NCBI GenBank assembly: GCA_003279455.1
Contig: QCHU01000015.1
Span: 1 to 32,679 of the forward strand
Direction: 5' to 3'
Source: Prochlorococcus sp. AG-402-G19
Lineage (GTDB): Bacteria > Cyanobacteriota > Cyanobacteriia > PCC-6307 > Cyanobiaceae
DNA length: 32,679 nucleotides
Within the stretch, counting starts at the first letter, position 1. Every line of letters begins with the position of its first letter. Shown here one piece after another: positions 10,751-14,545 of this stretch. Under the pieces are notes generated by a model. That model searched no databases. It was not told where the DNA came from and saw nothing but the letters and a program-made list of their open reading frames with translations. A program made the position numbers and the translations under genes.

Positions 10751-10833
10751 AACTTAAATAAAAGTTCGTTTCATCTATGTGGAGTGCATTAAATGGAAGT
10801 AGGGAACGGGATTTCCAGTAATTAATCTATTTC

Positions 10834-12473: not shown

Positions 12474-12553
12474 GACGTTCGGTTGAGGTAGGGCTTTCCT
12501 ACTCTCTTCTTACTAATAAGAGGAGTATGCCAAAGGTTTAGCAAGGAGTTCTT
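12474..12553 (+). promoter_or_regulatory. Structured leader of CxxC microprotein, copy A
   Basis: Upstream of the gene at 12554, GTAGG (12488-12492) can pair with CCTAC (12498-12502), while overlapping TACTC (12500-12504) can pair with GAGTA (12523-12527). The two hairpins exclude each other, the layout expected of a switch or attenuator. GCTTTCCTACTC-C, AGGAGTA and CCAAAGGT are shared with the leader at 13742-13833. Confidence 0.45.
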
Positions 12554-12691
12554 ATTAAACTCTTCAATCCTTTCACCATTTCTCAAAAAGCAAATTGCGA
12601 TCTTTGCAGGATCAAAACCAATAAAAGAAAAGCAACTGAATCCATATTCTCCAATTCACATAAGGGTATAGTCGATTTAGGGCATAAATAA
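12554..12691 (+). CDS. CxxC microprotein, copy A (ATT in the start position)
   Basis: Aligned base by base with the paralogue at 13834: KLFNPFTI, then ANCDLCRIKTNKRKATE, identical to the other copy from N-C-D-L-C to T-E (with one A/E difference before N). C-D-L-C plus a lysine/arginine cluster could bind metal or nucleic acid (inference). AAGGAG is well placed upstream, but the start codon is ATT where the other copy has ATG. It may be a rare ATT initiation, as known for infC, or a silenced copy. The C-terminus diverges after residue 30. 45 residues. Confidence 0.5.
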   Translation: MKLFNPFTISQKANCDLCRIKTNKRKATESIFSNSHKGIVDLGHK

Positions 12692-12903
12692 TTAACTTTC
12701 TTGGGGCTATTAACTTGTCAATTCTAGAAATACTATGAAATAGTTTTTCAATTCAAATCAATTAGACATTGACTTAATTCTTGCTTTTTTTAATTTACTC
12801 TTAGAAAAAGTGATTTGGCTTTATCTGATTTTACGCTACACCTACTAGCAATGAAAGTACTATTGTAAAGATAATTTTTTATCTCTAATTCGTATTCCCT
12901 TGC

Positions 12904-13236
12904 TTGACTTTTATTATCAGAATCTCTAAAGGAATTGAATTTTCAATCAGACTTCAATTATATGCATCAATAATCAGAGAATCATTGCCAATTCCGACAG
13001 CCTGGCTAGGCTCTCCGAGCACAGACTTATGTATGTTTTTTATTCGTGATCCGAAATCACTCATGAGTTATCCAAGCGTGATGACTCAACTTTGGCACTA
13101 TACAGAAGAAGGAATACCTACCAAATTGATAAATACAAGAAGATTGGAATATAAAAATGCACTAGAAACATGGCATGAGCTTCAATCGGACGCTTGGCAA
13201 TTAATAGAACGTCAAATCAATGATGATGCTTCCTAA
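12904..13236 (+). CDS. Hypothetical protein, possibly DUF1651-like
   Basis: 110 residues. The C-terminal half, with W-H-Y-T-E-E-G-I-P, RRLEYKNALETWHELQSD and AWQLI, resembles the picocyanobacterial DUF1651 pattern (aromatic-rich, RR-L, A-L-x-x-W-x-x-L, then GW or AW). The N-terminus from the first ATG looks hydrophobic and less family-like, so the true start may be downstream (an internal Met at 13030 or 13063). Function of the family is unknown. Confidence 0.6.
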   Translation: MTFIIRISKGIEFSIRLQLYASIIRESLPIPTAWLGSPSTDLCMFFIRDPKSLMSYPSVMTQLWHYTEEGIPTKLINTRRLEYKNALETWHELQSDAWQLIERQINDDAS

Positions 13237-13251
13237 TCCTCCACTTTTCAT

Positions 13252-13395
13252 TTATTCCATCAATACTTTTCGGTTGACTTGTGTGCAAAATTCATTTCTA
13301 GACTTTGCTGCTTTTTCGGCATCTTCAAATTTATCTACATGAACAATTTCTTTGATATCCATCCCTCCAATGAAACAAGAAACCTCAACTTTCAT
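13252..13395 (-). CDS. 47-residue hypothetical protein with strong RBS
   Basis: MKVEVSCFIGGMDIKEIVHV then DKFEDAEKAAKSRNEFCTQV: a beta strand followed by a helix, two cysteines, overall soluble. AGGAGGAGGTTAATA before ATG is a near-perfect Shine-Dalgarno, so this is probably a well-translated gene. It converges on the 110-residue gene with 15 bases between stops. Not recognised. Confidence 0.68.
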   Translation of the reverse strand: MKVEVSCFIGGMDIKEIVHVDKFEDAEKAAKSRNEFCTQVNRKVLME

Positions 13396-13525
13396 TATTA
13401 ACCTCCTCCTGGTTAGGAATAAAGGGTTCATTTTTAAGAATTATCCATATGAAAACTTATTTATCAATCTCAAGCAATAGCAAAAAAATTGAGTCTTTCA
13501 GGTCAAATATATTGGAGGAGAATAA

Positions 13526-13612
13526 CTGTACGTTTATAGAGATGGAGATAACATTGATGAAAATCCTCTAGAAAAAGACTTGCTTCTTATTGAAACCGAT
13601 AAAAATCAATGA
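13526..13612 (+). CDS. Possible 28-residue acidic peptide with CTG start
   Basis: GGAGGAGAATAA is followed by CTG and a short frame YVYRDGDNIDENPLEKDL, LLIETDKNQ. A very good ribosome binding site in front of a non-ATG start suggests either weak CTG initiation or a start-codon mutation in a former gene. Confidence 0.3.
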   Translation: MYVYRDGDNIDENPLEKDLLLIETDKNQ

Positions 13613-13741
13613 TCTACCTTACAAAAAGTACAACTAAAAGATCTTTATAGCTGGGTAATAAGTATTTCTCCGTCTCAGATGAATGGAGTCTTTAGATTGC
13701 TACTACAGGTGTAAGCAAATTTAGTTAACTTTCGCAAAGTT

Positions 13742-13833
13742 TAGGTTCGGTTAAAGGAAAACTTTGTAGTGCTTTCCTACTCCCTTTACATAAATAGGAG
13801 GAGTAGACCAAAGGTGTAAAAGAAGGAGGTCTT
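13742..13833 (+). promoter_or_regulatory. Structured leader of CxxC microprotein, copy B
   Basis: CTACTCC (13777-13783) pairs with GGAGTAG (13800-13806), 7 bp. The same CTAC (13777-13780) can instead pair with upstream GTAG (13766-13769). These alternatives and the flanking GCTTTCCTACTC and CCAAAGGT are conserved with leader A, while other bases differ. The stem is longer here by two pairs. A strong ribosome site AAGGAGG (13823-13829) follows. Confidence 0.48.
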
Positions 13834-13986
13834 ATGAGACTATTCACACCCTTCACCATCCCTAAAAAGGAAAACTGCGACCTTTGCAGGATTAAAACTA
13901 ATAAAAGAAAAGCAACTGAAAATCGATTCTTAGATCAATTATTTAAATTCCTCTACAGGGATAGGTTTGATTTCGTTTTCGACTGA
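13834..13986 (+). CDS. CxxC microprotein, copy B
   Basis: 50 residues: MRLFTPFTIPKKENCDLCRI, KTNKRKATENRF, then DQLFKFLYRDRFDFVFD. C15-D-L-C18 is a zinc-knuckle-like or redox half-site beside a Lys/Arg cluster. Start ATG with AAGGAGG 4 bases upstream. The paralogue at 12554 shares residues 3-30 but has a different tail. The cupin gene starts 31 bases after the stop, so the two are probably co-transcribed behind the same leader. No family is recognised. Confidence 0.68.
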   Translation: MRLFTPFTIPKKENCDLCRIKTNKRKATENRFLDQLFKFLYRDRFDFVFD

Positions 13987-14017: not shown

Positions 14018-14545
14018 ATGCGTTTAAATTTTGTTCCTACTCATGTTTTCCGTGAGACACCTCAAGTATCATTCTTCGATGCAGGAGTCATAGGATCCAA
14101 TGGCTCTGATGTCGTCATTCATCACGGCAATGCAATCTCACCACCAGATGATGGAGATTTTGAACAGTATTACGTACATCGACATCAAATTGATCACAAT
14201 TTAGTCATTGAAGGTAGTCGTGTTTTTACTTTGATCAATCCTGAATGGGATGAACCACATCACATTATTTATTTAAATCGTGCAATGGGCGCACTTCAAA
14301 TTCCTGTCGGAACATATCATCGATCAATCTCTAATAAAGAAGGAAGCATTGTTCTAAACCAAGCCGTAAGAGATGAAAAATTCAATCCTGAAAATGAATT
14401 TATACCAGTTAGTTTAAGAGACAGAAAAGATCTGCAAGAAGCTCAAAAGAAAAATCCTGTTTACTGGGTTTGGGAAAAAGATCAAATCAAAAGGATTAAG
14501 TTTGAGCCAATTAAACCTAAGGAAAATATTTTAAATAAACTTTAG
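14018..14545 (+). CDS. Cupin-fold protein
   Basis: 175 residues from ATG 14018, chosen over an earlier in-frame ATG at 13967 because GGAGG lies just before it and the earlier one would overlap the previous gene. YYVHRHQIDHNLVIEGSR (H-x-H and a G at a turn) followed by GALQIPVGTYHRSIS (the second cupin motif, P-x-G-x-x-H) gives a single cupin barrel; the His residues would bind a metal. Reaction and substrate are unknown. No signal peptide. Probably in an operon with the CxxC microprotein. Confidence 0.78.
   Translation: MRLNFVPTHVFRETPQVSFFDAGVIGSNGSDVVIHHGNAISPPDDGDFEQYYVHRHQIDHNLVIEGSRVFTLINPEWDEPHHIIYLNRAMGALQIPVGTYHRSISNKEGSIVLNQAVRDEKFNPENEFIPVSLRDRKDLQEAQKKNPVYWVWEKDQIKRIKFEPIKPKENILNKL

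Follow-up and report, generated by a model that had tools for sequence, protein, structure and literature searches.

Dispersed microprotein genes of one Prochlorococcus genus and their conserved leader

The window (the whole stretch of DNA that was analysed, 32,679 nucleotides of contig QCHU01000015.1 from Prochlorococcus sp. AG-402-G19) contains two related microprotein genes on the forward strand, here copies A and B, each preceded by a leader. The features are as follows.

12488..12553, + strand: leader of copy A (leader model 79.7 bits; a member by construction)
12488..12502, + strand: putative backward hairpin P1 of copy A, GTAGG/CCTAC, read from the sequence
12554..12691, + strand: reading frame of copy A, ATT start, 45 codons, with a diverged C-terminus
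13766..13833, + strand: leader of copy B, running from GTAG and ending just ahead of the ATG, in an alignment with 60 further leaders
13766..13780, + strand: backward hairpin P1 of copy B, GTAG/CTAC, its pairing counted across 61 leaders
13777..13806, + strand: forward hairpin P2 of copy B, CTACTCC/GGAGTAG, unsupported as a conserved structure
13814..13819, + strand: GTG TAA, a possible start-stop pair in leader B (start-stop in 53 of 80 copies)
13824..13829, + strand: Shine-Dalgarno-like AGGAGG of copy B, a reading of the sequence, conserved in the leader alignment
13834..13986, + strand: 50-codon microprotein gene, copy B, intact, ATG start
14018..14545, + strand: cupin-like gene after copy B, ATG at 14018

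As an earlier note on this DNA had described, three blocks occur in the same order in both copies (GCTTTCCTACTC at 12493 in A and 13771 in B, GGAGTA at 12522 and 13800, and CCAAAGG at 12530 and 13808), and both translations contain C-D-L-C and a Lys/Arg run. Its two pairings can also be drawn, the backward one as GTAGG/CCTAC in A (12488-12502) and GTAG/CTAC in B (13766-13780), and the forward one as TACTC/GAGTA in A and CTACTCC/GGAGTAG in B. The likeness of A to B is far above chance (E 8.5e-34 in a within-genome search), with 73% identity over the leader and N-terminus. The proposed duplication did not hold up. The two are not each other's nearest relatives (A ranks 57th of 78 for B, and B 47th of 78 for A), and are thus old members of a family and no recent tandem copy. 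Nor are they two equal genes, as A begins at 12554 with ATT and is without the final stretch of the 50-codon form. Its ribosome site is altered, the start-stop pair of its leader is lost (GTT TAG), and its frame is probably decaying. The window contains no tRNA genes by ARAGORN.

The family extends well beyond this locus. Copy A as query found four strong places on three contigs of its own genome. With copy B, matches at E 0.01 or better were obtained in 33 of 60 genomes (own included), among them 32 of the 36 other genomes of the same genus, where some matches were weak, and in none of the 23 genomes from other families of the class; matching genomes had 1-7 matches each. Searching 60 stretches and the window with a profile of the peptide family gave 94 matches at E 0.01 or better, 81 of which score 70 bits or more. 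A leader model, built from leaders of several of the 24 same-genus genomes in a sample of 300 from the taxonomic family, matched 21 of those 24 (own included) and 1 of the 276 others. Homologous leaders, whose absence had been named as counting against the proposal, are therefore present elsewhere. The peptide profile, run over 300 genomes, matched three from other genera, all near threshold (E 0.008-0.010), and of 43 named loci on public contigs 42 are labelled Prochlorococcus, the remaining one lying in a bin labelled Alteromonadaceae. The family thus consists of dispersed microprotein genes of one Prochlorococcus genus, which we take to be the low-light NATL-like group. Searches of Pfam, NCBIfam and PHROGs with the peptides returned nothing meaningful (three matches at E 0.08-0.23), a DNA search of a phage collection with copy B gave no match, and the viral contigs searched gave no confirmed match. 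A word search of the literature, with most subscription papers outside its scope, found no description of the family.

The microprotein is a real coding gene under purifying selection, which agrees with the earlier proposal of a conserved gene. Mean pairwise dN/dS over codons 2-21 was ~0.13 for 60 unique sequences (from 63 copies that start with ATG and match 17 or more of 25 consensus residues, a peptide-similarity filter that favours low dN), the five remaining frames of this DNA gave 0.29 to 2.6, and third codon positions were ~four times as variable as first or second positions. Two end forms were found, of 28/29 and 50/51 codons. Of 28 copies in the 28/29-codon form, 17 carry a terminator-like stem with a T-run; none of the 28 in the 50/51-codon form does. 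Codons 35-50 of the 50-codon form had a dN/dS of 0.23 in frame (27 sequences), compared with 1.57 for an antisense membrane-protein-like frame among the 50-codon copies. The 3' part of this form lies antisense to the C-terminus (VENEIK.IPV.EFK) of that small membrane-protein-like frame (L072, L054, L044, L068 and others), and a frame of this kind with the same C-terminus also occurs apart from the 50-codon form.

Both CxxC cysteines are kept in 57 of the 64 ATG-start copies of 20 codons or more, and CxxC is absent from the related microproteins with a similar N-terminus that were printed out. The suggested metal or redox response would have as its sole basis this motif, kept inside the present subfamily. 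The predicted structure of the 50-residue peptide is a single helix (residues 16-48) of low confidence (mean pLDDT 64, pTM 0.31), a model that offers no fold backing a function. If we had to guess, the peptide might be a small regulatory protein.

Many copies are decaying: by a scripted count of 80, no fewer than 25 have no intact frame of either length (28/29 or 50/51 codons). An ATG at the start site is missing in 11 of 81 copies, and in 4 further copies the ATG is present but is followed by a frameshift or the contig end. Decay on this scale, 1-7 matches per matching genome and differing flanks are what would be expected if the repeats were leftovers of a mobile element that do nothing for the host. 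Island elements of the Tycheposon type have a nearby tyrosine recombinase and a tRNA attachment site. In six closed genomes, however, no integrase-family match (E 0.001) lies closer than ~35 kb to a copy of this subfamily, and of the 58 copy-holding stretches 6 have a tRNA gene by ARAGORN, so that linkage of the copies to integrases or tRNA genes is not general. As the peptide is also under purifying selection, we regard a functionless remnant as highly improbable. By eye, a tRNA-like 3' end and a recombinase-like C-terminus adjoin single copies (L062, L077).

The gene at 14018-14545 had been called a cupin. A gene is indeed present after copy B, and its product presumably has cupin-like motifs; no match was found for it in Pfam, NCBIfam or PDB sequences. 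The cupin-like cluster is the same-strand downstream neighbour in 14 of 28 copies of the 50/51-codon form, a count that includes the same locus in related genomes.

Conservation of the leader, which the earlier note had based on two copies, was borne out across the family. Over 59 copies, the leader blocks GTAGTG..CTACTCCC and GGAGTAGACCAAAGGTG had mean pairwise distances of 0.12 and 0.16 (the second, written with its variant as GGA[GT]TAGACCAAAGGTG, being the one at 0.16), compared with 0.41 for the A-rich part between them, 0.32 for third codon positions and 0.58 further upstream. Since the blocks vary less than third codon positions, they are either constrained or recently spread, and recent spread or gene conversion may lie behind part of their conservation. 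By eye, the leader is joined at GTAG to upstream sequences of several kinds. A promoter scan found fewer sites than in shuffles, and none just before GTAG on the + strand. An upstream frame appears, also by eye, to overlap the leader in some copies.

Does this conservation reflect a two-way switch? In such a switch, a signal would control translation by deciding whether CTAC(TCC) pairs backward, with GTAG, or forward, with GGAGTAG. A and B each allow both pairings, and single-sequence folding gave a probability >0.5 for P1 in 15 and for P2 in 16 of 59 leaders, some leaders being unscorable, so that both states occur in the family. Across the alignment, which holds 61 of the 71 listed leaders (the 10 lowest-scoring were left out, and all pairing counts rest on these 61), P1 was paired in 98.4% of cells and P2 in 89.9%. 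Two-sided changes were absent from P2 and occurred once in P1 (1 of 244 cells, in 1 of 61 sequences), so that compensatory changes in both of the exclusive helices were not found, and 30 of the 61 leaders have a C.U mismatch in P2. The claim that the hairpins are kept although their bases differ is therefore not borne out, as the pairing bases are nearly invariant and do not covary. Absent covariation is among the outcomes that the earlier note had set against its own proposal. RNAalifold gave the alignment -1.75 kcal/mol with a covariation term of 0.03, and the mean folding z against shuffles was 0.05 (59 leaders with a recognisable GTAG; A -2.3, B -0.5). Thus, the leaders fold no better than shuffles, and a conserved two-way switch is unsupported. 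The GGAGTAG partner is, moreover, absent from those leaders of high-light relatives that were printed out. We consider the switch improbable.

Relatives in the high-light genus show how far leaders of this kind extend. A leader plus N-terminus query matched at least 104 of 121 genomes of that genus, where a single leader type is found before microproteins of several kinds that have just their first residues in common. The set of high-light leaders was drawn from 60 chosen stretches among the matches listed and 30 loci, and comprises 70 unique leaders of 94 matches, 7 of them with no start. Of 340 cells in its GGGTA/TACYC hairpin, 294 are paired; the changes are all one-sided, and some copies do not have the hairpin. 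RNAalifold gave no consensus structure for these leaders. Within the low-light genus, other microproteins begin MKLFTPFSIPK and have no CxxC. When 12 genomes were searched for a pattern of the shared N-terminus, it turned up in 7, all from the two genera, and in 0 of the 5 from other genera (its reversed control gave a single match across the 12). Cyanophage P-TIM68 encodes one of the high-light microproteins (64.8% identity) without the leader (L322 1501-1656), directly after a gene annotated as a heat-shock protein. The high-light microproteins that end KEC..HPTN..C..YCD (L262-L321) recall the C-terminal Cys-x8-Cys of CP12. On testing, this likeness proved weak: CP12 model matches in five genomes fall elsewhere, and profile comparison gave a probability of 6%.

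A feature common to many low-light leaders is a GTG or ATG directly followed by TAA or TAG, which is present in 53 of 80, with a ribosome-site-like sequence ~ten bases before it (by eye). The pair occurs in 46 of 55 copies with an intact main frame and in 7 of 25 without (Fisher p 2e-6), and in 52 of 68 copies with an ATG at the start site and 1 of 12 without (p 1e-5), the one exception being a copy in which the contig ends at the ATG; the association was found after looking and the copies are related, so these p-values overstate it. The variable letters of the pair are those that both of its codons tolerate. With its own ribosome site, such a pair could set translation of the microprotein by parking or recycling ribosomes ~20 bases ahead of the main start. 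Among the high-light relatives, in a count where the stop codon of the pair was part of the search, 20 of 70 keep it: 18 of the 22 that begin MKLI, and 2 of the 48 others, despite an otherwise similar leader. The idea looked convincing for the low-light leaders and lost ground with the high-light ones, and its link with intact frames may reflect general decay. We hold it to be unlikely. Much the same low expectation attaches to a broader version, in which exchangeable microproteins spanning the genus would share a portable 5' cassette (the leader and first codons, M[KR]L.TPF) and differ in their C-terminal modules, the start-stop pair setting translation in the low-light forms.

The reading that we favour, with some confidence, is a microprotein mRNA borne on islands whose conserved leader serves translation, rather than a ligand-driven two-state switch. 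The intact unit would be expressed as a small mRNA gene with a leader of ~65-70 bases that opens with the short GTAG..CTAC hairpin, P1, to which we infer a role. A strong AGGAGG ribosome site would follow in the leader, and then the frame for a basic peptide starting M[KR]LFTPFTIP..NCDLCRIK. The 29-codon form would often close in an intrinsic terminator, and the 50-codon form would be followed in half of the cases by the cupin-like gene. The leader would thereby serve as the mRNA 5' end and translation-initiation region, and the unit would presumably lie in genomic islands. Could the unit instead be mainly a small regulatory RNA with a secondary frame, as discussed for Yfr6 and Yfr9? It is compact (~175 bases) and many-copied, and the 28/29-codon form has a terminator-like end in 17 of its 28 copies, but the frame is under strong codon-level constraint and the leaders are not structured above shuffles, and this alternative seems to us very unlikely.

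The favoured reading, a microprotein mRNA with a translation leader, matters for how these regions may be regulated. Regulatory proteins are said to be few in Prochlorococcus (PMC2518516). The stretches analysed carry many short repeated genes, and a many-copy microprotein family under selection with a conserved leader makes a candidate for regulation there that can be put to the test. The occurrence of one leader type before several high-light microproteins, together with a leaderless phage copy, makes the system a reasonable target for study.

How does this leader compare with known ones? It is undescribed in Rfam, as the earlier note supposed: Rfam 15 over the window gave 0 families at gathering score. 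Loose thresholds over leader B gave chance-level matches only. A close likeness is to the glutamine-II riboswitch (Downstream-peptide, RF01704), which also precedes short peptides, is present in many copies and often has a GTAG..CTAC hairpin upstream. Downstream-peptide motif peptides in cyanobacteria are typically of 17-100 residues (PMC2864571). The present leader differs in that RF01704 did not match it in the window, in leader B at E 10 or at 16 relatives' loci, a model that did match a neighbouring site in L013 (43.6 bits); one glutamine-II peptide also reads as YRG-like (by eye). Of 30 glutamine-II matches (L172-L201, from six genomes, with orthologues included and two under or near the cut-off, L199 being under it), 17 have a GTAG(N3-8)CTAC hairpin <=45 bases upstream, compared with 0.3% of random 49-base windows; the hairpin seems to be a 5'-end feature of those transcripts. 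Divergent glutamine-II riboswitches lie ~55 bases from family copies at L013 1777-1832, G033:C1:598537-598592 and G033:C1:1043721-1043776. At 10760-10817 in the window, a sub-threshold glutamine-II match (28.8 bits, cut-off 33) precedes a short peptide frame beginning MNNLVLTKKRVLKKERLHRAQLATFKKG.

Small RNAs of picocyanobacteria offer further parallels. Yfr6 of MED4 is described as a 244-base RNA in which a 33-codon frame may begin at base 97, and is proposed to act as both RNA and peptide (PMC1242208, PMC2518516). Its 5' region corresponds to the Downstream-peptide motif, and its transcription starts ~20 bases before that motif (PMC2864571). Taken with the GTAG..CTAC hairpin upstream of glutamine-II matches, this start makes GTAG the likely transcript start of the present unit. 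Yfr6 and Yfr9 resemble the unit in joining a small RNA to a short frame, but Yfr6 appears to be set apart by the RF01704 test, since the present leader has no Downstream-peptide match. Yfr103 is likewise multi-copy, with homologues in strains including NATL1A and NATL2A; it is given as 290-328 bases and listed in Synechococcus and MIT9313, and in no high-light strain (PMC5069720). As described there, it would differ from the present family, which was found in two Prochlorococcus genera only. The Yfr13 small RNA (RF02364) lies within ~1 kb of several copies (L017, L027, L031, L166). The closest kind to the family is the picocyanobacterial genes in which a leader precedes a short peptide, namely Downstream-peptide/glutamine-II and Yfr6, and by the tests run it is not a member of these.
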